This document shows, one piece after another, positions 20 to 16,272 of a DNA stretch of 64,000 nt (position 1 is its first letter; every line of letters begins with the position of its first letter). Location: the NCBI GenBank assembly GCA_016124755.1, contig WGNA01000022.1:1-64000 (forward strand). The letters are read 5' to 3'. The translations under genes and the position numbers were made by a program. The DNA is from Bacteroidota bacterium. GTDB taxonomy: Bacteria; Bacteroidota; Bacteroidia; NS11-12g; UBA9320. The notes below the pieces were generated by a model. It was not told the DNA's origin, searched no databases, and saw only the letters and a list, made by a program, of their open reading frames with translations.

Positions 20-140
20 CTATCCCGCCTTTCCGACGGACCACCCACGCGTTCCTATTCTTGTTTTAGATCCGCTTCGCACGATTCATTTTGAACTTTT
101 TAATACAAAAAATGAAGTGATCCAGAAGTTGGTGTAATTA
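20..140. repeat. Direct repeat R1, copy 1
   Basis: About 120 bp nearly identical to 1277-1396 in the same orientation. Shared blocks include CTATCCCGCCTTTCCGAC, CCCACGCGTTCCTATTCTTG and GAAGTGATCC. The two copies bracket the DUF6090 gene at 231-977. No coding potential is seen. The bases from 141 to 230 hold nothing recognisable. Confidence 0.85.
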
Positions 141-230
141 TAAGGAGAAGCATTAAAGTAAAAATGCTTGAAACATTCATTATCTTCTAATTGGCATTAA
201 CGCGTACAGAAGCAATCCTATATCTGCTTA

Positions 231-977: not shown

Positions 978-1148
978 TTTTAATTTTGGGTTGGTGCTAA
1001 TCTATGTGAAAAATTAGCTAAAATTTAGGAAATCACTTTTTCGAAATTAACATAAATCGGGTGGAAGAATTTTTTTAATACTTCTCCGTTTGAATATACC
1101 AAGATTGTAAATTGGTTTGGGGATCGATGTTCAATCTCTTTTCTTCTC

Positions 1149-1185
1149 ACTTTTTTCTTGATAAAAAAGTAGGCAAAAAATCAAG
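1149..1185. repeat. Nested inverted repeat (CTTGAT family)
   Basis: ACTTTTTT (1149-1156) pairs with AAAAAAGT (1163-1170). Overlapping this, CTTGAT (1157-1162) pairs with ATCAAG (1180-1185). Similar dispersed repeats are common between genes in Bacteroidota. It could act as a weak terminator for neighbouring genes, which is an inference. Confidence 0.5.
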
Positions 1186-1224
1186 TCGGAAAGAAAGCTG
1201 GCAAGCGCCCTTTATCATTTGTTG

Positions 1225-1263
1225 AAAATCTGGGAAAGAAGTGTCAAGCACTTTCCCGATTTT
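1225..1263. other. Imperfect hairpin
   Basis: AAAATCTGGGAAAG (from 1225) pairs with CTTTCCCGATTTT (to 1263), with one bulge and a 12-nt loop that itself contains GTG/CAC pairing. It lies in the 487-bp gene-free stretch 978-1464, just left of R1 copy 2. No gene ends close by on the right side, so its role is open. Confidence 0.5.
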
Positions 1264-1276
1264 CTAGCGAATGACA

Positions 1277-1396
1277 CTATCCCGCCTTTCCGACTGCCCA
1301 CCCACGCGTTCCTATTCTTGTTTTAGGATCCGCTTTGCACAAATCATTTTGTTCTTTTAATATTAAAATTGAAGTGATCCGGAGGTTGGTGTAATT
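1277..1396. repeat. Direct repeat R1, copy 2
   Basis: Second copy of the roughly 120-bp element at 20-140, in the same orientation, with scattered substitutions and one-base indels. It separates the DUF6090 gene from the decayed DUF695/barrel operon. The rest of 978-1464 holds only the two inverted repeats listed separately. Confidence 0.85.
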
Positions 1397-1464
1397 TTGC
1401 GGGAAACATTATTTTTTTATAATTCGAATCGCAATTTGCGCACGTCTCAGATCCCACAGAATAT

Positions 1465-2149
1465 CTATAAAGTCCAGAACAACATTATTCCTCGCACAGA
1501 ATTCCAATAGGTTCTCCAATCCGTTTCGCGTCCGGAATAAGTCGGGCCGGAATACCTGCTGTCGGATAAAGATCGATATTGCAAAACTGCATTCGTTTCA
1601 ACGGTGATATTCAGTTTAGCATTAATTCGGTAGTTAATAGAAAGGTTCGGCAAAAGCCCGTACGAATTATAGGTTCCTGTGTAATCCGAAAACGATTTCC
1701 TCGGTAAAGGAATGCCGTTGTATCGCCCGGTAATTTGTCCTCTCGAGTAAGACATATCCAATCCTACCAAAAGATTCAGAAATGACAACCGGTACTTTGT
1801 TTCTAAACCGAGCCTGAATTCAAAAAAAGTTGTCGTTGCCCATTTCTTTATAATAGATGATTTCATGATCTACCGTTGAAAAACTTGAAGTGGAGGTGTA
1901 ACTAAAACTTGTTTTATAATAATCGAATGCGACCCGCAATGTGTTTTTCTTTAATCTTTTTTTCGCCATGATTCCGGCAGGAATATTTGAAAAATTAGAA
2001 AATCCAATATCATTGTTATTTCTCTGAATTTTGGTGATCGAAAGAAGATTTATCCCAATGTTCCAGTGCTTATCATCACTTGTGGAATCCTGGCCCAAAG
2101 AGTTGAGGGACTGAGTAACCAGAATAGCGAGAATTAAAAAATATTTCAT
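1465..2149 (-). pseudogene. Outer-membrane beta-barrel-like protein, frameshifted
   Basis: The reading begins at 2149 with a signal peptide (MKYFLILAILVTQSLNSLGQ) and runs 109 residues to a TGA inside a homopolymer. The run on the minus strand is seven T (plus-strand A at 1822-1828). With six T the frame continues from NDNFF straight into EFRLGLETKYRLSFLNL and on to 1465, giving about 226 residues rich in alternating polar/aromatic strands and ending in an aromatic-rich strand. That layout suggests a small outer-membrane barrel of unknown family. Its ATG overlaps the TGA of the upstream DUF695 gene (ATGA), so the two were one operon. A sequencing error in the homopolymer, or slippage-based phase variation, cannot be excluded. 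Confidence 0.75.
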
Positions 2150-2622
2150 TTTAAAAGTCCTGAAACAAAATGCCAGTTTTCATCTCTGTCAATTCTAAAA
2201 TTTAGATGTCGGATGTCGTTCATTCGATCGAGGAAATCTGCAGTAGAATTCTCTTCAAAATTGGGTTTGTCAACATAAAAAATGATATCACGATAGTCGC
2301 GTCTGGTGACTCTGCCGATATAATGAGTTTGATGATGCTGTTTAATAAAAGCCTCTAATTCTTCTTCCATGTCGTTCAGTACTATCGCTTCCGTATCATC
2401 CGGGAGTCCGCTTTCATTTTTATTTTGATATTCCAGAGTAATTTGAATACATCATGGAAAGAATTTTTTGTTCGGGTAGTTGTAATAAGCTGTATTCACA
2501 ATTACAAAACCGACTCCTTCTTCAAATTCGACTTTACCGGCAGAGAAATTTCCAATAGGGAAAATAGGTTCAACAAGTTTGTCTACGACGCGATCAGACT
2601 TTTTGAAAATATTCTTAAACAT
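2146..2622 (-). pseudogene. DUF695-like protein with an in-frame TGA
   Basis: One continuous minus-strand frame of 159 codons starts at ATG 2622 and is broken only by a TGA at 2454-2452. The front half reads MFKNIFKKSDRVVDK... through EFEEGVGFVIVN to KKFFP. After the TGA it continues CIQITLEYQN, GLPDDTEAIVL and HYIGRVTRRDYRDIIFYVDK. This matches the DUF695 pattern, where a Trp usually follows the Tyr/Phe-Pro, so TGG to TGA is the simplest change. The remaining open frame from an internal ATG at 2370 covers only the last 74 residues. The function of DUF695 is unknown. The downstream barrel gene is also broken, so operon decay is more likely than recoding. Confidence 0.75.
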
Positions 2623-2806
2623 ATATACGGACTTCGCAGCATTGTATTAAATGTACATACTGTACTACCAGTTAAATCAGTATTATGGTGAGCACAAACA
2701 TTCTGTCGAAGATAAACCAATCCGGGAAAGATCCATCATTTGGTTTGGTACTCTTGCATCAGCTATTCAGCGGGTTATGTACAGTTCAGAATTGACCTAC
2801 TATACA

Positions 2807-3475
2807 TCAATGGTTCAGTAATGCTAATGATTTGGAAGCATCGCCAAAAATCACAAATCCCTGATCGGGGTTGTAGTAAGCAATTTTAGCAGTGTCAGTC
2901 ACATTGAACTGGATCCATTCGGAGAAATGATTAACTGCTGTGGTTTGATATATAGTCCAAAGATTGATGAAAGTTTGTCCGTACTGAGCGTGTTGAGGCA
3001 CACACGAATCATAATTTTGACTACTTCCGAATCCATCGCCAAGACGGGTTGCAAAGGTTTGTTGATCAACTTGCAGTATCAAATACATTTGTTTCTTATC
3101 AGGAGCACCCAATAATGTAATGTCAAAGGATTTTGTTCCCGATGAATTCATGAATTGAAATTGTTTTCTTTCCCGGTGTATTTCATCATAGGAAAGCAGG
3201 TGTTCGGGGTCTGTGGGGTGGATTATTAAAGTATCGTTATTGACCTGATTTAAATGGTATAGTATGGTGTCGTAATTTCCGCTTCCGTTTAGTTCGATGA
3301 ATTTCAGGGAATCAAATTTCTGGAAATCGGCCAATACATTTTCCAGATTTTCAAAATGCAGTTTTTCAAATTGGGGTGACGTAACAAATTGATCACGGTG
3401 GCATGCAACGCACATAAAAGGCAGAAGCCAAGCCAATACTTTGTGAATATGTTGAAATGGATGTGATGTAATCAA
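2807..3475 (-). CDS. Putative lipoprotein of unknown function
   Basis: 222 residues. The N-terminus has a hydrophobic stretch followed by CVAC around residues 22-25, which could serve as a lipobox, so the protein may be anchored in the envelope. The body is a mixed alpha/beta sequence with no motif I recognise. It lies upstream of the decayed DUF695/barrel pair on the same strand with a 184-bp gap. The start is the first ATG after the hydrophilic residues MITSHPFQHIHK; a downstream start is possible. I do not recognise the family. Confidence 0.6.
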   Translation of the reverse strand: MITSHPFQHIHKVLAWLLPFMCVACHRDQFVTSPQFEKLHFENLENVLADFQKFDSLKFIELNGSGNYDTILYHLNQVNNDTLIIHPTDPEHLLSYDEIHRERKQFQFMNSSGTKSFDITLLGAPDKKQMYLILQVDQQTFATRLGDGFGSSQNYDSCVPQHAQYGQTFINLWTIYQTTAVNHFSEWIQFNVTDTAKIAYYNPDQGFVIFGDASKSLALLNH

Positions 3476-3553
3476 CTCTGTGTGAATATTTTGTTTGTTG
3501 GTTTATCGGAGTTTTGATCCGGAGAATTTTGTAAGACCCTCAAATGATTTCCT

Positions 3554-4084
3554 CTACCCGCATTTGCTATACGGCAGGTTGTGCTCAGTTATTATCCGGC
3601 CAAGTTCCTTTTTAACTTTTGTAAAATTCCATTCAGCCCAAATAGGAAATAGGTATAAACCGATAACGGCATTTAAGACAAGGAATATTACCAAACCAAA
3701 ATCAGTCAGATCATTTTCAAAGATCATTTTGGCGATCAAGACAATCGCGATGAGGAAATTCGATATGCTGAAGTATTTACCAAAAAGTGTGTAATAAGCT
3801 TCAATATTAAGTTTTGAACCTTGGTCATCGGATTCTATTTTCCCCTTTAGGGTAATAATGAAGGGCATAAATAATCCAAGAGTTAAGCGTTCACCAAAAA
3901 TCCGAAACTCTCCATTTTTAGCAACTCCTTCAAATCTGTTTCGGCGAGATATAAAGGGATAAATGCTATGCACGATTTGATGTATAAAAAACGATTTTTC
4001 TAGTTCCAGACCTTCGGCAATGTCATTTATAAGTACATCTGCTTTTTTCGAAGATTGCATTACAATATTTCTAGACCACGTCAT
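3554..4084 (-). CDS. Small two-helix membrane protein in a cassette-like unit
   Basis: I start this 176-residue protein at ATG 4084 (MTWSRNIVMQSSKK). The longer frame to 4138 would run through the cassette boundary at 4094-4103. Two hydrophobic segments (FLIAIVLIAKMIF and VIFLVLNAVIGLYLF) near residues 110-150 suggest a hairpin membrane anchor behind a cytoplasmic N-terminal half. The last codons (EHNLPYSKCG) run into the right end of the unit, whose TGAGCACAAC is the exact inverse of GTTGTGCTCA at the 5' end. The C-terminus therefore appears to be made partly by recombination-site DNA. The family is unknown. Confidence 0.65.
   Translation of the reverse strand: MTWSRNIVMQSSKKADVLINDIAEGLELEKSFFIHQIVHSIYPFISRRNRFEGVAKNGEFRIFGERLTLGLFMPFIITLKGKIESDDQGSKLNIEAYYTLFGKYFSISNFLIAIVLIAKMIFENDLTDFGLVIFLVLNAVIGLYLFPIWAEWNFTKVKKELGRIITEHNLPYSKCG
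3578..3587. repeat. Cassette end, inverted partner of 4094-4103
   Basis: Plus strand GTTGTGCTCA is a perfect inverted copy of TGAGCACAAC at 4094-4103, on the other side of the gene at 3554-4084. The sequence to its left (CGCATTTGCTATACGGCAG) resembles that left of 4217 (CACGTGGGCTATAACGCAG). This suggests related right arms of recombination sites. Confidence 0.6.
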
Positions 4085-4093
4085 GGTTGGAAT

Positions 4094-4226
4094 TGAGCAC
4101 AACGGTTTGGGTTGTGGTTGATGCGATTTGGGAGCCATACTTAATTGACCGTAAATAGTGTATCTTGGTTAGAAGGATTTCATTCTGTTTTCGCCAGCAC
4201 GTGGGCTATAACGCAGGTTGGGGTAC
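4094..4226. repeat. Degenerate attC-like site between cassettes
   Basis: On the plus strand the stretch starts TGAGCACAACGGTTTG and ends GGCTATAACGCAGGTTGGGG. Its left arm resembles the start of the better site at 5098 (AAC-GGTTTG), and its length of about 130 bp is alike. Its two arms do not pair well with each other, so it may be a hybrid of two sites or inactive. It contains the last codons of the gene at 4206-5090. Confidence 0.45.
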
Positions 4227-5090
4227 GTATATCTTGACCCATTGGCAAACATTTCTAAATCCTGATAAGGGGATTTTCTCATTGTCAATATTTTCCAAAG
4301 AGTCACATTTAAGGTCAAACCAACATCTGGATACTAAACTGTCTTCATCAGATAAGAATTCTCCATAATTTGATTGCAGCAGTGGATAAAGTTCATTTCG
4401 ATACAATGCGTTAGCACGAAGAGTAATATTGTGCCAACGATTCTGACATAGTCCAATTTTAGGTTTGGTGAAAGATGTATCAAGTGCAGTAACACATTTG
4501 ATAAATTGATTTGATTTAATGCTTTTGTTTCTATAAGAGTCAACCGCCAACTGGTATTCACTCTTTGTGGGTAATCTGTATTGCGGATAGTAAACAAATT
4601 TAGGAAGAGGCTTTTTTAACTTTACATCCCCATCTGCCAAAGATCTAATTGAAAATCGAGAATCGAGGTCTACTTCCAGATAACCAGCTTGGATCAGGAA
4701 TGTTTCCATAACACGATCACTTCTCCATGAACTATAATCTTGAGCTTGTTTTTTGGATATTCCAACAACTGGGTAGCGGCGGAATCTTAGATCTTTAAAG
4801 TATCCCTCTTCAGCTTCATACAGCAGTGGATTTATTTGAGTCCATTGACTTGAATCTGGGGATATATTGGAAATTAACTCAATGGAGTCTGGGTATTGCC
4901 TGGTAACCCACCCGAAGTACTCGAGATAGGATTGATTGTCAATTTCATTCTGGTCAATAAATAGATTCGAACCAATCTTTATGCATCCGAAAGGATACAG
5001 GGTGTTCACTTTCTTTTCAGATGATATTCGTTTGGCAGGATTACACGAAAAAACCAGTAACGCAGTAAGTGGTAATAATATGACCTTCAT
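4206..5090 (-). CDS. SUMF1/formylglycine-generating-enzyme-like lipoprotein
   Basis: 294 residues. A lipoprotein signal ends LLVFSC at residue 16, placing the protein in the envelope. The body has landmarks of the SUMF1 (FGE-sulfatase) fold: YPVVGISKKQAQDYSSW around residues 108-124, YRLPTKSEYQLAV around 172-184, and GFRNVC near the C-terminus in place of the usual GFRCV. In Bacteroidota this fold also occurs in gliding/T9SS lipoproteins (GldJ, GldK), so a structural role is as likely as an enzymatic one. The copper-binding Cys pair of true FGE is not obvious. The gene is the middle unit of a cassette-like array: its 5' side begins GTTAGATAC, and the stop lies in a degenerate attC-like site. 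Confidence 0.75.
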   Translation of the reverse strand: MKVILLPLTALLVFSCNPAKRISSEKKVNTLYPFGCIKIGSNLFIDQNEIDNQSYLEYFGWVTRQYPDSIELISNISPDSSQWTQINPLLYEAEEGYFKDLRFRRYPVVGISKKQAQDYSSWRSDRVMETFLIQAGYLEVDLDSRFSIRSLADGDVKLKKPLPKFVYYPQYRLPTKSEYQLAVDSYRNKSIKSNQFIKCVTALDTSFTKPKIGLCQNRWHNITLRANALYRNELYPLLQSNYGEFLSDEDSLVSRCWFDLKCDSLENIDNEKIPLSGFRNVCQWVKIYVPQPAL

Positions 5091-5097
5091 TTAATAT

Positions 5098-5232
5098 GTA
5101 TCTAACGGTTTGCGGCTTGCCGAAGGCGGGGTTTTGGAGCGACCAACTGTAGGCTGGTGCTAATGTAAATAAAACCCGTAAACTTTTGGCTACCACGTCA
5201 CCCCCGCTTTTGGCAAGCCGCTGTTAGTGGCA
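5098..5232 (-). repeat. attC-like recombination-site hairpin
   Basis: On the minus strand it reads TGCCACTAACAGCGGCTTGCC ... CGGCAAGCCGCAAACCGTTAGATAC. The arms pair over CGGCTTGCC and GGCGGGG, with 3-4 unpaired bases between outer and inner boxes, around a variable centre of about 75 bp. GTTAGAT fits the integron core GTTRRRY; the outer left box CACTAAC deviates from RYYYAAC at two bases. The length (135 bp) is within the attC range. It sits directly after the stop of the gene at 5241-5741, on the 3' side, as an attC should. No integrase is in the window. Confidence 0.65.
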
Positions 5233-5240
5233 GTTTTTTT

Positions 5241-5741
5241 TTAATTAATTTTTGTCCTATCACCCAATTCCGTTTCCACGGTCACTTTATAAGAGGTAAT
5301 ATTTGATTCTTTTTTGTCATTAAAAGTTAACGCAGCTTTTAAAGCTTGCATAACTAACTCATCAAAGTCATAGGAATTGTCAATATTCTGTTCCCAAATC
5401 TCAGGGATATTAACAGAAAGAGTAAGTGAGTCAATATTGTTGCCGTCTTGTTTTTCGAGACTAGAAAAATATATAACTCCGTTTGTTCCGTCAACGAAAG
5501 CAAGAATCTGTTTATTCATAAAATAATGTTCGTCCTGAATTTTCGAATAAACTTTAGCTAAGTCAGAAATGAGTTCCGTTTCATTTTCCGCTTGCGAAGT
5601 TGTTGCTAATAAATCTGAAGCAACGCTTTTCCATTCCATTTTCGTCTTATTTGAATAATTGTCACTTTTTTTTTGATTATTGTCTTGACATGAGTAAAGT
5701 AATTGAACGCCTGTAAATAATGTCAAAATGATTTTTTTCAT
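5241..5741 (-). CDS. Lipoprotein of unknown function in a cassette-like unit
   Basis: 166 residues. A lipoprotein signal ends LLYSC (Cys 18), followed by a charged linker and an alpha/beta domain with no family I recognise. The gene is the sole cargo of a unit bounded by TGCCACTAAC at 5794-5803 and its inverse GTTAGTGGCA at 5223-5232. The outer end abuts a promoter element (-7 box CAAATATA on the plus strand at 5817-5824) pointing into this gene. It is therefore the first gene of the array and probably the best expressed. Confidence 0.75.
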   Translation of the reverse strand: MKKIILTLFTGVQLLYSCQDNNQKKSDNYSNKTKMEWKSVASDLLATTSQAENETELISDLAKVYSKIQDEHYFMNKQILAFVDGTNGVIYFSSLEKQDGNNIDSLTLSVNIPEIWEQNIDNSYDFDELVMQALKAALTFNDKKESNITSYKVTVETELGDRTKIN

Positions 5742-5793
5742 TCTACGATTTAATTCATTTAATCCTTGTGTAATCTATGTTTTGCGGTAAAAT

Positions 5794-5803
5794 TGCCACT
5801 AAC
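5794..5803. repeat. Cassette 5' end, inverted partner of 5223-5232
   Basis: Plus strand TGCCACTAAC; read on the minus strand it is GTTAGTGGCA, the first bases of the cassette. It forms a perfect 10-bp inverted pair with 5223-5232. Its GTT marks the exact edge of homology with promoter-element copies at 8564 and 10467. Confidence 0.7.
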
Positions 5804-6031
5804 CTGTTTATATCCCCAAATATAACAAACCAACCCATCAGAAATCAAAGGATAAACCCAAGATCAGAAATTTATTTGTATCGCCTATTATACCTATCAC
5901 AGATAGATTCTTGGTTTGTGATAGTTCTAAGTGAAATATCTCGCCTGCAACTTTTAAAATTAAACCCAAATGTGATTAATCGAAGCAGAGAGAATTAGAA
6001 AGCGCAAAAACCTGATCGGCTTCGGTATATT
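5804..6031 (-). promoter_or_regulatory. Dispersed promoter element, copy A
   Basis: About 228 bp, closely similar to 8565-8795 along its whole length and to part of 10468-10555. Read on the minus strand it carries TTTG (plus CAAA 5846-5849), a 21-bp spacer, then TATATTTG (5824-5817), which fits the Bacteroidota -33/-7 consensus. It drives the cassette-like array to its left. Its far end lies just past the stop of the gene at 6050-6733, so it fills the whole gap between two modules. Confidence 0.75.
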
Positions 6032-6049
6032 CTTCTTAGATTAACGCGC

Positions 6050-6733
6050 CTATTGTTTTATCCAAATTACGTTCGAACTGTTGAAAATCCTTTTGCCTTT
6101 TGAAAATACGGTTGTAATTTCTGTGGAACTATCAAGATTTACAATCGGATAGAAAGGAGGTGAAGATTTTTGAACTTCAAATTCAGTATCATTTAACCAA
6201 TTCAGGGAATATGGTATCCACCTCGGTAAATTATTGAAATTTTCTCCGCCGTAGTTTAGCAGAATTTTTGAACTTTTAAAGGGATTCAGTTTGAACAATG
6301 TATCGTTTTCATAATAGAAATACATTTTCCCTTTCTGGCAATACCATACAAGTACATAATACTTTCTGTTGTCCTTTATGGCATCCGCTGTTGCAATAGA
6401 GTCTTCATTATATGGGTATTGAAACAGGTCTGCTGCTTTTATGGTAACGTAATCATAAGTTGTATCCGGAATTTGAAATGATGGAATGTTGTTTATACAG
6501 GATGTTGATTTCCCCGCGTAATAATAGAAAAATGTGTCTCCATTATTCATGCGGTAATTACCCACCATGAAGTCATCGTTTAGCGCTCTCTCCAAGGAAT
6601 CGTTTACCTCAGTGGAAACCGGAACTCCAGCAATATTATTTTTACTTGTTGCCTGGTAACCGAAAGCTAAAATAGGAAATACCAAAATCAGAATGAAATC
6701 AGCACCTTTTGTGTGAATGAGCTGCATAACCAA
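6050..6733 (-). CDS. Secreted protein of unknown function
   Basis: 227 residues. An N-terminal hydrophobic segment around residues 12-26 (DFILILVFPILAFGYQA) looks like a signal peptide after an unusually long n-region (MVMQLIHTKGA); a start at the second Met is possible. The body is rich in Tyr, Asn and Asp, with no known motif. It is the last gene of the module that starts at promoter-element copy B, after the DUF6090 and esterase genes, with a 111-bp gap from the esterase. The family is not recognised. Confidence 0.6.
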   Translation of the reverse strand: MVMQLIHTKGADFILILVFPILAFGYQATSKNNIAGVPVSTEVNDSLERALNDDFMVGNYRMNNGDTFFYYYAGKSTSCINNIPSFQIPDTTYDYVTIKAADLFQYPYNEDSIATADAIKDNRKYYVLVWYCQKGKMYFYYENDTLFKLNPFKSSKILLNYGGENFNNLPRWIPYSLNWLNDTEFEVQKSSPPFYPIVNLDSSTEITTVFSKGKRIFNSSNVIWIKQ

Positions 6734-6844
6734 TTCTGCTACAATTGTGATTGTAAGTGCCTTTTTGATCTTTTTGCCGAACAGTTTTATTTCGTTTTGC
6801 GGTTAAGTCAACGTTTTATTTTAGTCGTTCTTATAACCACTTAA

Positions 6845-7738
6845 TTAGTTTTCATTATTACTGATAACAGCATTTTTAAAGTACTGGTAAAATAATAGGT
6901 GAAATGTATTATACCCCATTTCCTGAATTATACTGTTGAAAGGTCCGTGGCTGACGCCTTGTATAACTGTAAATGTATGAGGGATATTGAGACTATCTAA
7001 ATAAGACGAATAGGCAACATTGGATTCATAATTAGCATCCTTGTTGCCAACGATCATATATAAATGTATAGGTAGTGAAGGATCTTTTTTATATGTTTTT
7101 GCCAAATCCCAGGAATTGTCATTTGGTTGAAATTCGCCATCGAATCCTGAGCTGTCAGCATTTTGTTTTTCCCATTGATGACCTGGCGAAATTGATACCG
7201 AAACTGAAAATAACTCTGGATATCTGAATATATACCTGGCAGCAGCTCTACCGCCCATGCTGTAACCCAAAAGACCTCTTGCGGTTCGGTCAGGAACTGT
7301 TCTGTATGTACTGTCAATAAAAGGAATTAGTTCCTCGATAAAACTTGATTCAGCAAAAGAATTGAATTGTGGGAAATCGTAATGACTTCTGTGCTTACCA
7401 CCATTGTTCCATACATAAATTATTGGGAAAAGCGAATCGACTTCATCCGTAGGTCTAATGAAATATGTTCGGGTTTCATTTCCGGGATTTCCACCATGAA
7501 GAAAATAGACCACAGGATATCTTCGGTTGGCATTTGCTGAATCTGAATATCCGGGAGGTAATGCGATTGAATATCCAATCTCTGTCTTGTTTAATTCACT
7601 GTAAAAGGTTTTGTGAACTAACCCCCTTGGGTAATTTTCCGGAATTTCATTTACCCATTTATGGTCGTCGGTCTGTGCGTTCAATGAAAACGACAGGCAT
7701 ATTAAGCCAAAAAAGCATGTTATAAATTTGGGGAACAT
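6845..7738 (-). CDS. Secreted alpha/beta-hydrolase esterase (esterase D/enterochelin-esterase-like)
   Basis: 297 residues with a signal peptide (cleavage probably after SLNAQ). The alpha/beta-hydrolase landmarks are in order: oxyanion-hole HGG in VVYFLHGG around residue 80, the nucleophile elbow GYSMGG with Ser near residue 161, and a C-terminal GVSHG supplying the likely catalytic His near residue 265. This is the putative-esterase family that includes feruloyl esterases and enterochelin esterases. The substrate is not predictable but is likely a carbohydrate ester or siderophore ester in the periplasm. It starts 3 nt after the DUF6090 gene, so the two are co-transcribed. Confidence 0.85.
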   Translation of the reverse strand: MFPKFITCFFGLICLSFSLNAQTDDHKWVNEIPENYPRGLVHKTFYSELNKTEIGYSIALPPGYSDSANANRRYPVVYFLHGGNPGNETRTYFIRPTDEVDSLFPIIYVWNNGGKHRSHYDFPQFNSFAESSFIEELIPFIDSTYRTVPDRTARGLLGYSMGGRAAARYIFRYPELFSVSVSISPGHQWEKQNADSSGFDGEFQPNDNSWDLAKTYKKDPSLPIHLYMIVGNKDANYESNVAYSSYLDSLNIPHTFTVIQGVSHGPFNSIIQEMGYNTFHLLFYQYFKNAVISNNEN

Positions 7739-7741
7739 AGG

Positions 7742-8542
7742 CTAAAGCGGATTATTTTTAATGTAGGCATCAATTTCTTTCAGGCAGTTATTGATCAAAG
7801 CTATCGTTGATTTGAGATCCTGTATCATCATTGTTCTTCCTATCAATGCTTCATTTACTAGCGTTTCGTATTCCGGATCATTCATTAATTTATCGTAGTC
7901 GTTTGGTATTCCGAAAAGCATTATTTTGGTATTTTGACCTAATTTAGGAACGTAGGCAGTGATCGATTTTACGGTTGATGTATCGCAAATATTCAAATTG
8001 TTTTTGCTCCTAAAATTTGCCTGATAATATGGGAATAATACTCTTGCAGCATTACGTCGAGTGTTCACTTTTTGTGTAATGCGGTCATAACCTGATTCAT
8101 ATATCTCGGTAATAAGCGAAAGAAGTTTATCAGATTTGATAATATTCAAATTTCCATTTTTAAGTGCTTCGTAGGATGATTTCTTCGGGAAGGTGTAGTT
8201 AAAAGAGACACTGTTGTAAAAGTCGACATACATGGAATCGTGCAGTTCAGGTTTAGAAGCAATATATTTTAAAATGTCCAACGTAGATTGTTGATATGAT
8301 GTGTGATCTCGAAGATCAACTTCCAGTTCCAACAACTGAACCTTTAATTCGGTCTCAATGTTTTTCAACTGAATATGCTCCGCAACACGGTTTTTTCGTT
8401 CATCATTCCAATTGTTTATTTGAAGTGCGATCAAAATACCGATTACAACAAGAACGATCTCTCTTAAAGCATACAAGAGATAATTGCTAAATTTTTTTTC
8501 ATTGATTAGGCTCTGCTTTATGCTTTGAAAGACTCTTATCAT
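7742..8542 (-). CDS. DUF6090 family membrane protein
   Basis: 266 residues: a basic N-terminal segment (MIRVFQSIKQSLINEKK), one TM helix around residues 28-46 (EIVLVVIGILIALQINNWN), then a helical extracytoplasmic region. It is a paralogue of the protein at 231-977. It is the first gene downstream of promoter-element copy B and is followed within 3 nt by the esterase gene. The function of DUF6090 is unknown; the pairing with an esterase may reflect only shared promoter use. Confidence 0.85.
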   Translation of the reverse strand: MIRVFQSIKQSLINEKKFSNYLLYALREIVLVVIGILIALQINNWNDERKNRVAEHIQLKNIETELKVQLLELEVDLRDHTSYQQSTLDILKYIASKPELHDSMYVDFYNSVSFNYTFPKKSSYEALKNGNLNIIKSDKLLSLITEIYESGYDRITQKVNTRRNAARVLFPYYQANFRSKNNLNICDTSTVKSITAYVPKLGQNTKIMLFGIPNDYDKLMNDPEYETLVNEALIGRTMMIQDLKSTIALINNCLKEIDAYIKNNPL

Positions 8543-8564
8543 AATCTTTTAATTGGGTATAAAC

Positions 8565-8795
8565 AAGTTCATATCCCCAAATATAACTTTCCGATCCATC
8601 TAAAATTAAAGGATAGACCCAAGATCAGAAATTTATTTGTATCTCGTATTGTGCCCATCACGGATAGATTCTTGGTATTTAATAGATCTAAGTGGAATAT
8701 CTCACCTGCAACTTTTAAACATTAAACCCAAATGTGATTAATCGAAGCAATGAGAATTAGAAAGTGCCAACACCTGATCGGCTTCGGTATATTTA
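8565..8795 (-). promoter_or_regulatory. Dispersed promoter element, copy B
   Basis: About 230 bp matching copy A (5804-6031) from end to end, including the segments AAACCCAAATGTGATTAATC and CTGATCGGCTTCGGTATAT. On the minus strand the -7 box is TATATTTG (8585-8578). The -33 position reads TTTA instead of TTTG. Homology ends at GTT (plus AAC 8562-8564), 14 nt from the -7 box, exactly as in copies A and C. It promotes the DUF6090-esterase module. From here to 8875 no gene is seen. Confidence 0.75.
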
Positions 8796-8875
8796 AATCA
8801 TTACAACTCCAAGTAGAATTTCAATTTTCAGATTCATCAATTTTTTTAAGGTTTGGTTGGCAAACGTTTGGGATA

Positions 8876-9475
8876 TTATTTTATATAGGCTTTGAGTTCA
8901 TTAAGACCAATTCCTTTTGTCTTAGTAATTTGCCAAATGCCAATTTTTTCTACTGTTGCATACCAAGTAAACACCTGATCATCCTTTACACGATAGGCCA
9001 TAATGCTCCCTCTTTGGTTAATTTGTGTGTTTGACGAAAACCAAATAAAAAGTCCGTTTGAAGTGTATTCTGCGATTCGATTATGAATGTTGTCTTTGCT
9101 ACTTCTACGCCTGTGAAGGGTCTTTTTAATTTTTTCGTTTCCCGTGTCCTGTTTTATAAAGAACTTTGAATAGACCACACGGTTGGGGTTGAAAGGTGGG
9201 ACTGAAATTTTTTCTCGCCATACATTTTCAAGTGCTGCATCTATTTGATCTTTCATTCCTCCAAAGTCAAATGGTACGACAGTTTGGCCTGAGTAATTTA
9301 ACCATTTGTGATCAAACCAGTTTTTTATTTTTACAAATACAACCTCTTTTATCGAGTACTGAAATATTAAGGATCCCATTATGGCATTTACAATGTCAAT
9401 GAACTCTTGGGAGTCACCTTTTTCAACTTGTATTTTCTGATAATCTTTCAGCATCTTTAATTGTGTGCTAACCAT
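8876..9475 (-). CDS. Protein of unknown function
   Basis: 199 residues from ATG 9475 (MVSTQLKMLKDYQK). A longer frame from a TTG at 9505 would overlap the upstream gene and is less likely. The protein looks soluble: no signal peptide or TM segment, many Lys and Trp, and a C-terminal half with short predicted strands (IAYTSNG-like, MAYRVKDDQ). It follows the lipoprotein gene at 9498-10475 with a 22-nt gap, so it is co-transcribed from promoter-element copy C. I do not recognise the family. Confidence 0.6.
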   Translation of the reverse strand: MVSTQLKMLKDYQKIQVEKGDSQEFIDIVNAIMGSLIFQYSIKEVVFVKIKNWFDHKWLNYSGQTVVPFDFGGMKDQIDAALENVWREKISVPPFNPNRVVYSKFFIKQDTGNEKIKKTLHRRRSSKDNIHNRIAEYTSNGLFIWFSSNTQINQRGSIMAYRVKDDQVFTWYATVEKIGIWQITKTKGIGLNELKAYIK

Positions 9476-9497
9476 TTGAAGGTTTGGCAGTAGGCAT

Positions 9498-10475
9498 TTA
9501 ATCAACTTTTACTAACTCCTCTTTAATCTTGAAAGTAGCCATGTCCATTGATCTAACTACAACATAACCCTTGTGCTGGTTGCTTTTTTCAATTACATCA
9601 ACACCTGCTTCCCATTGATCGCAATGTGTTGTGATTGGTTCAACAAAATTTTGCCATGAACTGGCACCTTTAGTCAATACCAAATATGACCTCCAACAGC
9701 TTGTCCACCATTTAGGTAATAGCCCAATCTCATCAGTTCCATTATTATCTAAATCTCCCTCATTTATCGGCGAGCCCCCAATACATGACTCCACCGTTAT
9801 AGGCTTAAGATTTGAGTTGGAAAACACAATTTGGCATTGACATTTTCCTATGCATTCACCAAAGCTTTCACCTTCTTTACCAGGTTCTGGAAAATCTGGT
9901 TCTAACAACCACATGAATTCTTTCTTACCATCCCCATCATAATCTCCTTCAACAGCATCAGCAGGAATACGAATTTCATACTTGGCGGTTTGGTTGTTCT
10001 TCTTTTCTGGGTTCGATTTGGTTGAAAGATTCGCATCTGTGATCATATCGCCTTCATTTATAATAACCCAATTCTTGTCAACATATTCGAATACTAAGTA
10101 CGAAGGGTAATCAACACTTTGTCCATCTATAGTTACTTTTTTAACAAAGCTGCATTTTTGACCTTTACCATAAGATTCGATCTCAATTTCTCCCACGATT
10201 TGCTGATAAAAAGCCTTTTGATTATTTAGAAGCTTTAACTTCCTCTCAACACATAAGATTCTTGATAGACTCTGTTGATAGAAGATCACTGAATCTCCGT
10301 ACAAAGTCGAAAACTGGGTTTGGTTTTTTTCGTTGTGAGCTTTATTCCATGCTTCGACCAAATTCCTCAGGGTTTGTTGATCATTTTCATTAGTACGGTC
10401 AGAATTATTACAACTAAATATCAGTTGTGAAAGGAATATGACAAGGAGAATGTTTATAACTGCCAACTTGTTCAT
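9498..10475 (-). CDS. Lipoprotein with NTF2-like and Asp-rich (FG-GAP-like) regions
   Basis: 325 residues from ATG 10475. The in-frame ATG at 10502 is excluded because it lies inside the promoter. The lipobox LIFSC follows MNKLAVINILLVIFLSQ. Residues about 30-125 resemble a SnoaL/NTF2-like domain (TLRNLVEAWNKAHNEKN and a later VIINEGDM). The later part has two calcium-loop-like motifs, DYDGDGKKEF and DLDNNGTDEI, plus several Cys (CIGKCQCQ), as in FG-GAP/VCBS-type repeats. It is an envelope protein of unknown partner. The start codon lies only 5 nt past the -7 box, so its mRNA is probably leaderless. Confidence 0.7.
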   Translation of the reverse strand: MNKLAVINILLVIFLSQLIFSCNNSDRTNENDQQTLRNLVEAWNKAHNEKNQTQFSTLYGDSVIFYQQSLSRILCVERKLKLLNNQKAFYQQIVGEIEIESYGKGQKCSFVKKVTIDGQSVDYPSYLVFEYVDKNWVIINEGDMITDANLSTKSNPEKKNNQTAKYEIRIPADAVEGDYDGDGKKEFMWLLEPDFPEPGKEGESFGECIGKCQCQIVFSNSNLKPITVESCIGGSPINEGDLDNNGTDEIGLLPKWWTSCWRSYLVLTKGASSWQNFVEPITTHCDQWEAGVDVIEKSNQHKGYVVVRSMDMATFKIKEELVKVD

Positions 10476-10555
10476 ACCCTCAAATATAACTCTCCAACCC
10501 ATCCGAAATCAAAGGATAAACCCGACCTTCAGAATTTATTGGTGTCTCAGTTTAA
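10468..10555 (-). promoter_or_regulatory. Dispersed promoter element, copy C (short)
   Basis: About 80 bp of homology to copies A and B. On the minus strand: TTTG (plus CAAA 10510-10513), a 21-bp spacer, then TATATTTG (10488-10481), identical in spacing to copy A. Homology ends at GTT (plus AAC 10465-10467), already inside the coding region of the gene it drives. The outer 150 bp found in A and B is missing here. Confidence 0.7.
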
Positions 10556-10606
10556 TGAATAGAAAACACCGTTATTCCGAAATTCAACCAACACACATCA
10601 TCCGCT

Positions 10607-11131
10607 TCATTCCTCATTTACCGCAAACCAGGATGCGATTCGTTTTGCAAAAACCACGCAGCAAACTCCTATAAGTACTTTAATGGCGGATGCGATATAC
10701 CAGTTGGATTTTAACCAATTATCTCTTCGTTCTTCGGGAGATAAAGGGATCATATTTTTTAACTGAACAAGAAGATAGGGCAGTGTCCAGGCGAGTAGGA
10801 GAATTCCGGATACGATCAGCGCTATTTCATAACTGACTCTGCGATTAACGGAAATATTTACAGACTCTTCAAAATCGGATTGACCGCAAACTAATTTAAC
10901 AATGCTTTGGGTTTTAAAAGTAAGAATCAAACCAAAAATAAAGGTGAATAGAAAGGTTAGAATACTCAGATAAATTACCCAGGTTTCACTGATGCTAAAG
11001 AATAAATCGGTTCCTGCAAAGCTGATCAGATAAATGGTGTTCAAAACATCCCGGAGATTATCGAATGAGGATAAGAATACATAAATACCAAGGAGTTTGA
11101 TGGATACTTCGTAGATGTCGGATTTTTTCAT
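10607..11131 (-). CDS. Four-helix membrane protein of unknown function
   Basis: 174 residues with four hydrophobic segments, around residues 10-35, 47-72, 100-125 and 148-168. The short N-terminus MKKSDIYEVSIKLLG suggests a cytoplasmic start. No catalytic or transport motif is evident. It is the last gene of the module that begins at promoter-element copy D, after the CoiA-like and NTR-like genes, although the 151-bp gap upstream may hold its own promoter. The family is not recognised. Confidence 0.65.
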   Translation of the reverse strand: MKKSDIYEVSIKLLGIYVFLSSFDNLRDVLNTIYLISFAGTDLFFSISETWVIYLSILTFLFTFIFGLILTFKTQSIVKLVCGQSDFEESVNISVNRRVSYEIALIVSGILLLAWTLPYLLVQLKNMIPLSPEERRDNWLKSNWYIASAIKVLIGVCCVVFAKRIASWFAVNEE

Positions 11132-11282
11132 GAGGATTATTTTGTAATGAGTTGAGTTTGTAATTTGCTATAAATCTTTCATGAGTGGGGAGCCAAAAAA
11201 TTACAAAGGATAATCTTAATGCTAATACACATATCATTAAATATAAATACAGTAAATGAACAATATCTTGGGCTTAATACAG

Positions 11283-11858
11283 TCATCTTTTGTATCTAAT
11301 CATAAGTGTTAAATTCAATAAAATAGATAAACCCAGCAGAGAGATTAAAATTACCTCACCTGTATATACAGTTTTGGAATTTGTCTTTGTTTGTACCTTT
11401 GACTTTCTATAGATTTTTTTAGGTTTACCTAAAATTTCAAAATCAAGAGCAGCCTCACTTGACAGTTTATTGGGATCGCAGATACTTGCGACATAGATGG
11501 GATTGGAGCACATGGGTATTCCAACATTAACTGCATAAATTAAATAAGTGGAATCGACCCGAAAGTTATAACTGCTGGATTTCCCTTCCCGGAAGATCTT
11601 AATTAAGTGACTCATTTCACTTGTTCTTGTCCATGCTCTAAATGGCTCGATCAAATAATAATTTTCCGGGAAATCCCGAAATTGGTCAACGTTGTTTGAA
11701 TCTTTGACTATCTCAACTATTTTTCCCTCAAAAACAAATACATCGGAGTTATTTAAAAAACGATGAATTTGGTTAGCTAAAGTTGTGTCAATTTGAAGGC
11801 AGCAGGCATTAGCGATGGAACTGAGGACTAAAAGTAAAATGGTGAGTCTGGATTTCAT
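11283..11858 (-). CDS. Secreted NTR/TIMP-like domain protein with C-terminal anchor
   Basis: 191 residues. A signal peptide ends SIANA before CCLQ. The pattern DVFVFEGKIVEIV, then STYLIYAVNVG, then C-x-NPIYVASIC resembles bacterial netrin/TIMP-like OB folds (Cys near the new N-terminus, a FxGKV strand, YLVYA and a Cys pair). A hydrophobic helix around residues 168-186 followed by RYKR anchors the C-terminus, so the domain would face the periplasm. Such proteins are often of unknown function. The NTR assignment comes from pattern only, and I am moderately sure of it. Confidence 0.6.
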   Translation of the reverse strand: MKSRLTILLLVLSSIANACCLQIDTTLANQIHRFLNNSDVFVFEGKIVEIVKDSNNVDQFRDFPENYYLIEPFRAWTRTSEMSHLIKIFREGKSSSYNFRVDSTYLIYAVNVGIPMCSNPIYVASICDPNKLSSEAALDFEILGKPKKIYRKSKVQTKTNSKTVYTGEVILISLLGLSILLNLTLMIRYKR

Positions 11859-11965
11859 TGAGCGTAAATGTAAGCATTTGGGTTGGACAAAATTCTAATC
11901 TTAAAACTGTTAATCATAGTTAGATGAATTAAGGCAAAGTTGTCGGAATTTCCTTGACCTATAAC

Positions 11966-12676
11966 CTATAAGGGGCATGGCGAATGTTGATTGTAATATT
12001 CATAATTCCCACCATATTTTTTTATAAAATCTGTTTTGGCTATATATGTTCCCCTGATCTGGTTTGTCCCCATCCCTTCTTTGACCCAAAAAAGTTTATC
12101 GCAATTAAAATCAATAAATATATGCCTTTCGACCGCAATCCAACTTCGTCTTGGTCGCTTCCAATCAAAGAACTGGTCATTTTTGCCTTTTATAATTTCT
12201 GGTTTTTTTCTTATCCAACGCACAGGTTTTTGAGGAAGACTTTTTATCATTCGATAATCCTCATCTTCCCAAAAATCCTTGACTATTAAATTTTGTTTGA
12301 AACTTGCCCCGTTGATCAACCAAATCATACGTTCACCATAGAATTCTTCGCGTTCTCTTATGGTTGTCTTGGAAATAAGGGAGTTCTGTAGTTCTATTAT
12401 AACCTTATTATTTGTTAAAACATCTGCAATATGCCACTTACCATCTTTGTCAATTCTAATTTCATTATTATCCTTTCCAAATGTTAATTTCCATTGTTTG
12501 TGCCATAGAGATTCAGGTTCATTCCAGAGGTCGCAATCAGTTTTTTTAAAATGCGACCAATGCCAAATATTAGTCTCACCACACTTTGAAAAGACAGGTT
12601 CTTGACAAGCAGGACAGATCCCTTTTGTTTTTGGAAGAGCTTCAACTTTTTCACCACTAACAATTGCCCAAATCAT
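11966..12676 (-). CDS. CoiA-like nuclease family protein
   Basis: 236 residues. The N-terminal part has a zinc-like pattern: C21-x2-C24, H39/H42 and C48, inside CPACQEPVFSKCG and WHWSHFKKTDCD. A PD-(D/E)xK-type core follows, with D85 in WHIADV and E95-x-Q97 in VIIELQNSLIS. This arrangement is that of competence CoiA-like proteins, which act on DNA; in Bacteroidota such genes often sit in accessory islands with no competence locus. No other competence gene is nearby. It heads a module behind the diverged promoter-element copy D. The family call is reasonably firm; the biological role is open. Confidence 0.8.
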   Translation of the reverse strand: MIWAIVSGEKVEALPKTKGICPACQEPVFSKCGETNIWHWSHFKKTDCDLWNEPESLWHKQWKLTFGKDNNEIRIDKDGKWHIADVLTNNKVIIELQNSLISKTTIREREEFYGERMIWLINGASFKQNLIVKDFWEDEDYRMIKSLPQKPVRWIRKKPEIIKGKNDQFFDWKRPRRSWIAVERHIFIDFNCDKLFWVKEGMGTNQIRGTYIAKTDFIKKYGGNYEYYNQHSPCPL

Positions 12677-12709
12677 CTCGTTGGTATAAAATTACTAATT
12701 GCTTCTTTT

Positions 12710-12765
12710 CCCAAATATAATCATCCCTTTCATCCAATATTAACAGAACTCCTATCCCAATCAAT
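12710..12765 (-). promoter_or_regulatory. Dispersed promoter element, copy D (diverged)
   Basis: On the minus strand it reads TTAATATTGGATG, then TTATATTTGGG, aligning with TTAATTTTAGATGG and TTATATTTGGG of copy B. The -7 box TATATTTG is at 12719-12712, and the CoiA-like start is 35 nt downstream. The -33 box is not clear, and the GTT junction seen in A-C is absent. Confidence 0.45.
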
Positions 12766-12830
12766 TTTTTCTGTTCCATTTATGCTGATAAAGCTATAGA
12801 CATATCATTCTTTGAAACTCAAAATAAAAA

Positions 12831-13435
12831 GGCTTTCGTCAGTAATTCTCCAATTTATGCTGACAATGCCGAACCTTAAAAATATTTGGATAACCAGATG
12901 AACGAAGGCATTCGTCAGTAATTCCCCAATTTATACTGACAATGCCAAACCTTTAAATACTTGAATAACCAGATTAAAAGAGGCATTCGTCAGTAATTCC
13001 CCAATTTATACGGACAATGCCGAGCCTTAAAAATATTTGGATAACCAGATGAATGAAGGCATTCGTCAGTAATTCTCGTATTCTCCAATTCTCCATTTCT
13101 CCATTTCCCCAATTTATACTGACAATGCCGAACCTTAAAAATATTTGGATAACCAGATGAACGAAGGCATTCGTCAGTAATTCTCGTATTCCCCAATTTA
13201 TACTGACAATGCCAAACCTTTAAATACTTGAATAACCAGATTTAAAGAGGCATTCGTCAGTAATTCTCCAATTCCCCAATTTATACGGACAATGCCAAAC
13301 CTTAAAAATATTTGGATAACCAGATGAACGAAGGCATTCGTCAGTAATTCTCGTATTCCCCAATTTATACGGCCAATGCCGAACCTTAAAAATATTTGGA
13401 TAACCTGATGAACGAAGGCATTGTCAGTATTTCCC
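12831..13435. repeat. Tandem hairpin-unit array, 7 full units plus one truncated
   Basis: Units begin with GGCATTCGTCAGTAATT (first unit GGCTTTCGTC) at 12831, 12907, 12982, 13058, 13166, 13249, 13333 and 13417. Each holds GGCATTcGTCAGTA paired with TACTGACAATGCC, a hairpin with one bulged C. Two tail types alternate: type A (AAAAATATTTGGATAACC) and type B (TTTAAATACTTGAATAACC). The order is A-B-A-A-B-A-A, so units 1-3 and 4-6 form a duplicated triplet. Unit 4 is longer through a short run of TTCTCCA-like repeats. The last unit is cut at 13435 next to the GH92 promoter. No coding potential is seen. Confidence 0.9.
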
Positions 13436-13452
13436 CAACATCAATATCTTTG
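13421..13452 (+). promoter_or_regulatory. Promoter of the GH92 gene
   Basis: TTG at 13421-13423, a 21-bp spacer and TATCTTTG at 13445-13452 fit the Bacteroidota -33/-7 pattern. The start codon is at 13471. The -33 box lies in the truncated last unit of the tandem array. It also rules out the in-frame ATG at 13396 as the start. Confidence 0.6.
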
Positions 13453-13470
13453 TCCACCCAGCACTGTGTT

Positions 13471-16272
13471 ATGACCGCATTCATTAAAAGATTCTCTGTA
13501 TTTCTATTTTTTATTTTGGATTTACATGCGCTCTCTGCACAAAATCTGAATCGTACTTCCTATGTGAATCCGTTTGTGGGAACGGGCGGACACGGACACA
13601 CATTTCCCGGTGCAACCACGCCGTTCGGAATGGTGCAGCTTTCGCCCGATACGCGCATCGACGGGAGCTGGGATGGCTGCGGCGGCTATCATTACAGCGA
13701 TTCTTTTATTTACGGATTTTCACATACACACCTCAGTGGAACCGGTGTGAGTGATTACGGCGACATCCTGATTATGCCGCAAACCGGAAAAACTTCTTTT
13801 GATCCGCAGCAATACAAAGCGGTCTTTTCGCATAAAAATGAAATCGCAAAACCCGGCTATTATTCTGTTATTTTTAACAATGGAATTAAAGCCGAACTCA
13901 CAGCCTCAACCCATGTGGGAATGCATCGGTACACCTTTCCGGAAAAGTCGTTTAGTGTTGTAATTGATCTTCAACATCGAGATAAGCTACTCGATTATAA
14001 AATAGAATTTAAGGAATACGGCATCGGTGTGAAACGCGTTTCGAGAGCCTGGGCTGTTGAACAACATTGTTACGGTTATTTGCAATTTTCTCTACCGTAT
14101 CAACACGAATTCAATTCGGATTCTTCCAAACTGATTTTACATTTTAACAATTCTCAAAAACAACTTTTAGTGAAATGCGGAATTTCTTTCACCGGAATAG
14201 AAGGTGCCTATCATAATCTCGATGCCGAAAAACCCGATTGGGATTTTGATGAATGCGTTTCGGATGCAAATAATTTCTGGATTAAAGAATTAAATCATAT
14301 TGTGGTGGAAGACCGCGACGAGGAAAAACTAAAAGTATTTTTTACCGCGCTTTATCACACCATGGTTCACCCCAATATCGCGATGGATTATGATGGACTT
14401 TACCGGGGAATGGATAATCAGATTCATCAGGCCGACAACTTCACGTATTATTCGGTTTTTTCGCTCTGGGACACGTTTCGCGCTTTTCATCCGCTGTACA
14501 CTTTGCTCGATCCGGAGCGCGTAAACGACTTCATTAAAACCATGCTTACAATGTACCAACAGGGCGGAAGACTGCCGGTTTGGGAGTTGTGCGCCAATGA
14601 AACCGATTGCATGATTGGCTATCACAGTGTTTCGGTAATTGCCGATGCGGTGGCGAAAATCAAAACGGATTTTAATAAAGAACTCGCGTTTGAAGCCATG
14701 AAGAAAAGTGCCAACTGGAATCATCTCGGATTGCCGGAATACAGCCGTTACCATTTTTTGTCGATTGACGACGAGCATGAAAGTGTTTCCAAAACTTTGG
14801 AATATGCATACGACGATTGGTGTATTGCGCAAATGGCAAAAGCACTAAACAAAACCGACGAATACGAGTATTACCTCAATCGTTCGAATGCGTGGCGAAA
14901 TCTTTTCGATCCCGAAACACATTTGATGAGGCCGCGTAAAAACGGCGGTTGGTTAACACCATTTGATCCGCGTGAAGTGAATAATTATTATACCGAAGGA
15001 AATTCATGGCAGTATTCGTTTTTTGTTCCGCAGAATATTCCCGGACTCATCGAAGCGACCGGTGGAAATGCTGCCTTTGAAAAACATCTCGATTCTTTAT
15101 TTACCGCTCCGGAAGCCACCACCGGCAGATCGCAACCCGATATCAGCGGCATGATTGGTCAATATGCGCACGGAAACGAACCAAGTCATCACATTGCGTA
15201 TTTGTATAATTATGTAAGGAAACCGGAAAAGACAAAAGCCATTGTTCACCGTGTGTTAAAGGATTTTTACACCAATGCACCAGACGGATTAATCGGCAAC
15301 GAAGACTGCGGACAAATGAGCGCTTGGTATGTGATGTCGGCTTTGGGAATTTATGCGGTCACACCGGGAATTCCGGAATACCAGTTGGTGGAACCGTATC
15401 TCGATCGCTATGAAGTAAATCCGAGTATTTTTAGTTTTACAGATACATTAATTCGCAACCGATTAAAAAGCGGAAAAACATCGGTTACCCATTCTGAATT
15501 ACTATTTAAAAAAGGGGATGATTTCCGGTTGGAGGAGCCTTCTACCTTTATTCCGTCACCGGTATTTTATGCGCCGAATATGTTGTTCCGCGATTCCATG
15601 AAGGTGCGCATTGAAACGGATAAAAATTGCATTGTAGGTTATAAGATTCCGGGAGAAAATCATTTTCATATTATTAATTACCATGAATATGTTTTAACGA
15701 TAAAAACCGGCACAATCATCGAAGCCTGGGCATGTTGCGGAAGCGACACCAGTGCGCATGTGAGGGCTCAGTATGTAAAATTTCCGCATCCCGATTGGAA
15801 TGTAAAATTGAATTGCACGTATAATCCGCAATACAACGCCGGCGGTCCGAACGGCTTAATCGACGGGCTACATGGTGATAAAAACTGGCAGAAAGGAGGT
15901 TGGCAGGGATATCAGGGGCAGGATTTCGAAGCGGTGATCGATATGAAGAAAGTGCAACCGGTTGAATTTATCGGAATTACTTTTTTGCAGGATACCCGAT
16001 CGTGGATTGTGTTTCCGAAAGAAGTGGTGATTTCCACTTCGACAGACGGCAAGAATTTTAACGTTTTTACCACGATGCATTGCAACGATTCTATTCAGAA
16101 TTTTAATGTTATAATATCGCAACTGAGTATCGATATTGATGCGAATAAATCTCCATTTAAAACGAGGTATATTAAAATTCAGGCTAAAAACTACGGAACG
16201 CTTCCACACTGGCATCAGGGAGCGGGAGGGGAGGCTTTTATTTTTGTTGATGAGATTGAGATTGTGAATTGA
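13471..16272 (+). CDS. GH92 family alpha-mannosidase with C-terminal discoidin-like domain
   Basis: 933 residues from ATG 13471, which gives a proper signal peptide (MTAFIKRFSVFLFF ... ALSAQ). GH92 enzymes are calcium-dependent exo-alpha-mannosidases, mostly alpha-1,2, acting on N-glycan or yeast-mannan chains. Family landmarks are VGTGGHGHTFPGATTPFGM (about residues 35-53), GCGGYHYSD, FSLWDTFRAFHP, DISGMIGQYAHGNEPSHH (ending near 571) and GNEDCGQMSAWYVMSALG (about 609-626). Residues about 785-930 look like an F5/8-type (discoidin) carbohydrate-binding domain (NGLIDGLHG, WQGYQGQDFEAVIDM). It is probably secreted or surface-exposed. It stands alone, with no SusC/D pair nearby, between two repeat blocks. 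Confidence 0.95.
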   Translation: MTAFIKRFSVFLFFILDLHALSAQNLNRTSYVNPFVGTGGHGHTFPGATTPFGMVQLSPDTRIDGSWDGCGGYHYSDSFIYGFSHTHLSGTGVSDYGDILIMPQTGKTSFDPQQYKAVFSHKNEIAKPGYYSVIFNNGIKAELTASTHVGMHRYTFPEKSFSVVIDLQHRDKLLDYKIEFKEYGIGVKRVSRAWAVEQHCYGYLQFSLPYQHEFNSDSSKLILHFNNSQKQLLVKCGISFTGIEGAYHNLDAEKPDWDFDECVSDANNFWIKELNHIVVEDRDEEKLKVFFTALYHTMVHPNIAMDYDGLYRGMDNQIHQADNFTYYSVFSLWDTFRAFHPLYTLLDPERVNDFIKTMLTMYQQGGRLPVWELCANETDCMIGYHSVSVIADAVAKIKTDFNKELAFEAMKKSANWNHLGLPEYSRYHFLSIDDEHESVSKTLEYAYDDWCIAQMAKALNKTDEYEYYLNRSNAWRNLFDPETHLMRPRKNGGWLTPFDPREVNNYYTEGNSWQYSFFVPQNIPGLIEATGGNAAFEKHLDSLFTAPEATTGRSQPDISGMIGQYAHGNEPSHHIAYLYNYVRKPEKTKAIVHRVLKDFYTNAPDGLIGNEDCGQMSAWYVMSALGIYAVTPGIPEYQLVEPYLDRYEVNPSIFSFTDTLIRNRLKSGKTSVTHSELLFKKGDDFRLEEPSTFIPSPVFYAPNMLFRDSMKVRIETDKNCIVGYKIPGENHFHIINYHEYVLTIKTGTIIEAWACCGSDTSAHVRAQYVKFPHPDWNVKLNCTYNPQYNAGGPNGLIDGLHGDKNWQKGGWQGYQGQDFEAVIDMKKVQPVEFIGITFLQDTRSWIVFPKEVVISTSTDGKNFNVFTTMHCNDSIQNFNVIISQLSIDIDANKSPFKTRYIKIQAKNYGTLPHWHQGAGGEAFIFVDEIEIVN

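Follow-up and report, generated by a model that had tools for sequence, protein, structure and literature searches.

Within the 64,000 nt of contig WGNA01000022.1 from a Bacteroidota bacterium (assembly GCA_016124755.1, hereafter the window), one promoter-like element recurs at the head of successive gene modules, which raises the question of what this element is and why its homology breaks off at the same GTT in front of different cargo. A first-pass annotation had compared the arrangement to the attI-Pc region of an integron, a promoter beside a fixed insertion point, here repeated several times. We consider it very likely that the three elements, B1 to B3 (Table 1), are attI-type sites belonging to an integron of Bacteroidota and that each is joined to a predicted promoter pointing into the cargo that starts at G/TT (the slash marks the crossover). 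The comparison is borne out by an attC-bearing cassette that begins at the first GTT, by an integrase elsewhere in the same genome with its own attI and attC-bearing cassette, by the same site layout at integrase-adjacent attI of other genomes, and by repeated attI with a G/TT edge in two of them.

The three elements lie on the minus strand, are 82-88% identical and carry their terminal G exactly at 5803, 8564 and 10467, beyond which the DNA is unrelated. The repetition is real, the copies being recovered both by a repeat search of the window (5801-5970 against 8562-8731, 83%; 5952-6031 against 8714-8793, 91%; 10465-10546, 79%) and by a search of the own genome (88% over 8567-8793, 82% over 10465-10546). 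Column identity per 20 nt falls from 16-17 ahead of the G to 3-9 past it, except for a stray block of 13 matches per 20 nt at 61-80 nt, and when the right edge of homology was mapped for each own-genome copy, as the first-pass annotation had suggested, the same edge was obtained in all three: ...GGATATAAACAG G/TTAGTGGC (5803), ...GGATATGAACTT G/TTTATACCC (8564) and ...GGGTATGAACAA G/TTGGCAGTT (10467). The copies of 228-231 nt described earlier at 5804-6031 and 8565-8795 are homologous as claimed but composite, with a proximal part of ~85 nt, which alone is common to all three elements, and a distal part of ~140 nt that belongs to a genome-dispersed repeat (repeat A). The proximal promoter half has no further copy in the own genome outside the window array, and a search of 58 relatives and 395 class genomes returned the own genome only, plus trivial matches. 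An Rfam search of window positions 1-13500 (E up to 1) gave no match.

The cargo at the B1 edge is a gene cassette that starts with GTTAGTGGC, an exact complement of the sequence GCCACTAAC at the R'' end of the attC site at 5098-5231. Such complementarity marks an integron cassette, in which circularisation brings the two ends together into a single attC. By DNA similarity, sites related to this attC are present in 49 of 295 class genomes. They are imperfect inverted repeats with R'', L'', L' and R' boxes and unequal spacers, as is characteristic of attC, and in 18 aligned sites the stem is conserved, with 17 conserved pairs of which 8 show double, compensatory changes. A covariance model built from these 18 sites (R1; the window attC itself is among them) matched in 142 of 198 class genomes at an E threshold of 0.01, scoring being limited to 16 candidates in each genome, and the sites often stand in arrays of 10 to 30 in a single orientation. 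In 49 of 58 consecutive site pairs at least 6 of 7 positions of the cassette start agreed with its own R'', as compared to a mean of 3.1 and a maximum of 11 of 58 for shuffled pairs; the complementarity, which extends over 10 nt at B1, was also found at the integron on contig C18 of the own genome and in another genome, G117. Further R1 sites of the own genome lie at C21:12-7107, C33:9636, C28:42407, C4:101410 and C23:215723, and because some of them are at contig ends the array has probably been split by the assembly. A second attC-like type (CAACCTGCnnTATAGC), on the minus strand of the window at 4221-4200 and 3590-3570, is missed by R1, so that counts of attC sites in these genomes are too low.

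The integrase on contig C18 is a tyrosine recombinase with the complete R-K-H-R-H-Y catalytic hexad. Seventy-odd nt past its stop codon a cassette starts at G/TTAGCGGTA, carrying CRP-like, SRPBCC-like and SDR-like genes (named by eye) and an attC at 143739-143869, at the contig end, whose R'' TACCGCTAAC is the exact complement of the cassette start. Relatives of this integrase head arrays in many other genomes (G246, G153, G086, G216, G137, G092, G191, G133, G104, G166, G098, G180, G187 and G239), the integrase adjoins arrays in most genomes examined, and the family is present in named hosts such as Flavobacterium ichthyis, Labilibacter marinus and Neolewinella persica, the F. ichthyis protein being 70% identical to the C18 integrase. 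At E up to 1e-50 the integrase was found in 99 of 198 class genomes, 91 of which have R1 sites (Fisher p 1.8e-10). When the C18 integrase is aligned to the solved structure of an integron integrase from Vibrio (2a3v), the alignment is interrupted at IntI residues 188-242; the IntI-specific domain that contains the I2 helix lies in this region, and every family member aligned lacks the insert of ~55 residues. The C18-type integrase scores below the cut-off of TIGR02249, and its closest family by sequence is XerA (NF040815, 216.8 bits, cut-off 220); in only one of the 198 class genomes did an integrase pass the threshold of the NCBI integron-integrase model. The single canonical integrase is that at G196:C40:3592-4530 (421.9 bits).

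An attI with a G/TT crossover lies beside the integrase on contig C18 and in at least 15 other genomes or records; the window copies are orphans. The first cassette of these integrons is joined in a common layout, TTGnnnnTA, 7 nt, G/TTAnnnnCAA. A weight matrix of the attI left half including the GTT, trained on 16 integrase-adjacent sites from other genomes only, placed B3, B1 and B2 at ranks 1, 2 and 3 of 127,962 window positions, and when the three most similar training sites were left out the copies still ranked 2, 3 and 5. The result is strongest for B1, because there the attC cassette is in place. The fourth copy claimed at 12710-12765 did not hold up equally well: it has the -7 box and some of the left arm in common with the others but lacks the GTT, its best nearby rank is 270 with the GTT columns and 62 without, and it is a doubtful copy, either decayed or a chance similarity.

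Arrays with several attI recur in two unrelated genomes. G216 contains three copies, one after the integrase on its contig C2 and two in another array (its C28:199409 and C28:193797); the ~100 nt ahead of G/TT are 93-99% identical and the DNA past it is unrelated. In one of the two extra copies the final 27 codons of an integrase are present as a stub, and the other adjoins a chromosomal gene resembling mnmA (by eye). In G117 two attI copies with the same G/TT edge are located 3.4 kb apart.

The motif TTTG-N21-TATATTTG, attributed by the first-pass annotation to the two best promoters, is present in copies 1 and 3, while copy 2 has TTTA at -33 instead. Since 14 nt separate the end of the boxes from the crossover, transcription would take in an inserted module from its first bases onward. 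Promoter activity is predicted here from the motif: both boxes occur in B1 and B3 and in 3 of 22 other attI sites (0.3 expected), and the motif by itself is common in the window.

Table 1. Features of the array and of the related integrase locus (window positions unless a contig is named).
Feature	Position	Strand	Remarks
attI-like site B1 with promoter, left half	5803..5886	-	matrix rank 2/127,962; rank 1 with both halves
B1 core TTGGGGATA-TAAACAG-G/TTAGTGGCAA	crossover between G5803 and T5802	-	
attI-like site B2, TTGGGGATA-TGAACTT-G/TTTATACCCAA	8564..8650	-	matrix rank 3/127,962; -7 box only, at 8578
attI-like site B3, TTGAGGGTA-TGAACAA-G/TTGGCAGTTA	10467..10546	-	matrix rank 1/127,962
Doubtful decayed fourth copy	12698..12765	-	upstream of CoiA-like ORF 11966-12676
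Promoter-like TTTG-N21-TATATTTG of B1	5817..5849	-	14 nt from crossover; predicted from sequence
Promoter-like TTTG-N21-TATATTTG of B3	10481..10513	-	predicted from sequence
Gene cassette 1, inserted at B1, TTAGTGGC...attC...G	5106..5802	-	start exact complement of own attC R'', 10 nt
Open reading frame (ORF) of cassette 1, 166 aa	5241..5741	-	no Pfam match
attC of cassette 1, 134-nt hairpin site GCCACTAACAGCGGCTTGCC...GGCAAGCCGCAAACCGTTAGATAC	5098..5231	-	R1, 124.6 bits
ORF of cassette 2, FGE-sulfatase-like	4206..5090	-	begins just past attC G/TT
Cassette 3, start G/TTGTGCTCA at 4103	3579..4103	-	complementary R'' TGAGCACAAC near 3580-3589
Module 2	5803..8563	-	DUF6090 gene 7742-8542, esterase 6845-7738, ORF 6050-6733, then B1
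Module 3	8564..10466	-	lipoprotein-like ORF, ORF 8876-9505, then B2
Repeat A copy 1, outside the attI	5891..6031	-	dispersed in genome
Repeat A copy 2	8654..8793	-	dispersed in genome
Tyrosine recombinase of own genome, 355 aa	C18:140520-141584		adjoins attI and attC-bearing cassette

Several observations weigh against an attI identity of B1 to B3. Without the GTT columns the copies rank only 11, 16 and 35, and between 103 and 175 if the three most similar training sites are removed as well; being homologous, the copies moreover do not count as three independent observations. With 5 occurrences in the window where 2.07 are expected, the two-box motif alone is not significant and is weak evidence. 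No integrase was found in the window and no integrase remnants upstream of B1 to B3. The attI on contig C18 (AATGGGCTA-CAAGATA-G) is not closely similar to the three copies, has a lower left-half matrix score and is not singled out by that matrix, and B1 to B3 may therefore belong to another or a lost integrase. Finally, the modules 8563-5803 and 10466-8564 yielded no R1 match, no clear R'' and no recognised attC, and the R-box consensus is matched less closely where their cargo begins.

The lack of a recognised attC in modules 2 and 3 would also be expected if one promoter region had simply been multiplied by homologous recombination or segmental duplication, the GTT at the edge being a coincidence or the remnant of a single attI, and the 228 nt that copies 1 and 2 have in common, including the adjacent repeat A, are what a segmental duplication predicts. 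We nevertheless regard duplication alone as unlikely: it explains how the copies multiplied, not why every one of them stops at the integrase crossover, why three copies with the same edge are ranked at the top by a matrix from the attI of other genomes, why an attC cassette begins exactly at the B1 edge, or why G216 and G117 show the same pattern. A mobile promoter or insertion element of the miniature inverted-repeat transposable element (MITE) or repetitive extragenic palindrome (REP) type, which would insert ahead of genes and for which GTT would be the terminus or the target site, could account for the dispersal of the distal half, one copy of which stands beside a gene resembling Y1 transposases of the REP-associated tyrosine transposase (RAYT) type. 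However, the promoter half is not dispersed, all three copies being confined to the window array, it matches attI, and repeat A is missing from B3, which makes this explanation very improbable. That the repeat might represent an attC belonging to the cassette before it was considered at the outset and rejected, and appears exceedingly improbable; attC repeats likewise end at G/TT ahead of unrelated cassettes, but arms like those of the attC family are missing from the copies, the only R1 match in the window is 5098-5231, and the matrix matches are to attI.

If B1 to B3 are attI-type sites, modules 2 and 3, which have attI at both ends and no recognised attC, may be read as attI-to-attI units resembling the delta-attI cassettes known from class 1 and class 2 integrons. 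The suggestion of the first-pass annotation that a promoter cassette is spreading by recombination describes the same idea from the side of the module. An integrase without the I2 helix, such as the C18 product, would insert circular cassettes at G/TT by attI x attC recombination, as exemplified by the cassette at 5106-5802, and expression of the insert would be driven by transcripts that begin immediately outside it. Extra copies would arise where units ending in the attI left half and promoter, instead of an attC, are inserted or fused, and we infer that they were gained through recombination between two attI, or else through homologous duplication; each module would then bring the landing site and promoter for the next one. 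The I2-less recombinase would presumably be at least as able as IntI1 to recombine attI x attI.

Regarding the remaining features of the region, cassette 3 has one mismatch at the tested start/R'' offset and an attC of another type, missed by R1. The lipoprotein-like ORF of module 3 has its stop at 9498 and starts either with ATG 10475 within the attI or with TTG at the crossover. The CoiA-like (competence) ORF is situated at the outer end of the array. A repeat of ~120 nt in two copies (20-139 and 1277-1396, 81-96% identical in pieces) flanks a DUF6090 gene (231-977) that is a paralogue of the one in module 2. Repeat A (~140 nt, TATACCGAAGCCGATCAGG...CCAAGAATCTATCCGTGATGGGTATA) occurs at about a dozen other places in the own genome, with copies on L003, L004 and L006-L010; one copy directly abuts the Y1/RAYT-like transposase gene L004:1624-2274 (RAYT assigned by eye), which suggests a REP-type element. 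A tandem array of ~75-84 nt units (GGCATTCGTCAGTAATTC...) spans 12804-13475, and its unit is also present just upstream of the C18 integrase; with 69 matches genome-wide, it was dropped as a shared flank of the window array and the C18 integron.

According to the prevailing account, it was the I2 helix that enabled integron integrases to use single-stranded attC hairpins (PMC7790495). As about half of the sampled class genomes link a recombinase without I2 to genuine attC arrays, this account becomes directly testable. A literature search confined to freely available papers returned no earlier report of Bacteroidota attC arrays with I2-less integrases. The system is common in Bacteroidia and represents a kind of integron that largely escapes current tools in Bacteroidota, which suggests that integrons are far commoner in this phylum than standard tools report. 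Only the first few cassettes of an integron array are generally expressed, a rule that repeated attI-promoter copies would relax. It is conceivable, and we put this forward tentatively, that Bacteroidia carry a widespread separate class of integrons whose integrase has never gained the I2 helix and nevertheless recombines folded attC, and which also spreads, by attI x attI recombination, modules each with a landing site and promoter, so that many cassettes would be first in line for expression.

Compared with known systems, the arrays share with integrons, both class 1 (attI1-Pc) and sedentary chromosomal, the integrase gene, an attI with G/TT crossover and inverted L and R boxes, attC cassettes with R''/R' complementarity mostly in one orientation, and a predicted promoter at attI. 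They differ in the integrase without the IntI insert, the repetition of attI within an array, the overlap of the -7 box with the L box and the Bacteroidota-type promoter. In every feature visible in sequence the system is integron-like, but the defining I2 domain is absent, and its name depends on the integrase. To Xer/XerA recombinases the integrase is nearest, both lacking the insert, but here it is linked to attC arrays and has an extra N-terminus of ~70 aa and an SPLD/NPFD-type C-terminus like IntI. CALIN (cluster of attC sites lacking integrase) and In0 elements defined by IntegronFinder are similar in comprising attC arrays without a recognised integrase adjoining; in that survey Bacteroidetes had earlier yielded only In0 and then one complete integron, in Salinibacter ruber (PMC9024848), in contrast to the sites reported here from 142 of 198 class genomes with an integrase that misses the canonical cut-off. 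Recombination of attI x attI by IntI1 via the ordinary double-strand route is documented (PMC4792948), as are functional delta-attI (attI-ORF-delta-attI) cassettes of class 1 and 2 integrons, in which the remnants are mostly 14-18 nt and found in mobile integrons, with 244 nt kept in delta-attI2-238 (PMC12901181). The units described here likewise end at their 3' side in an attI left half and not an attC, but the element spans about 80-230 nt, includes a predicted promoter and is repeated three times on a Bacteroidota chromosome.

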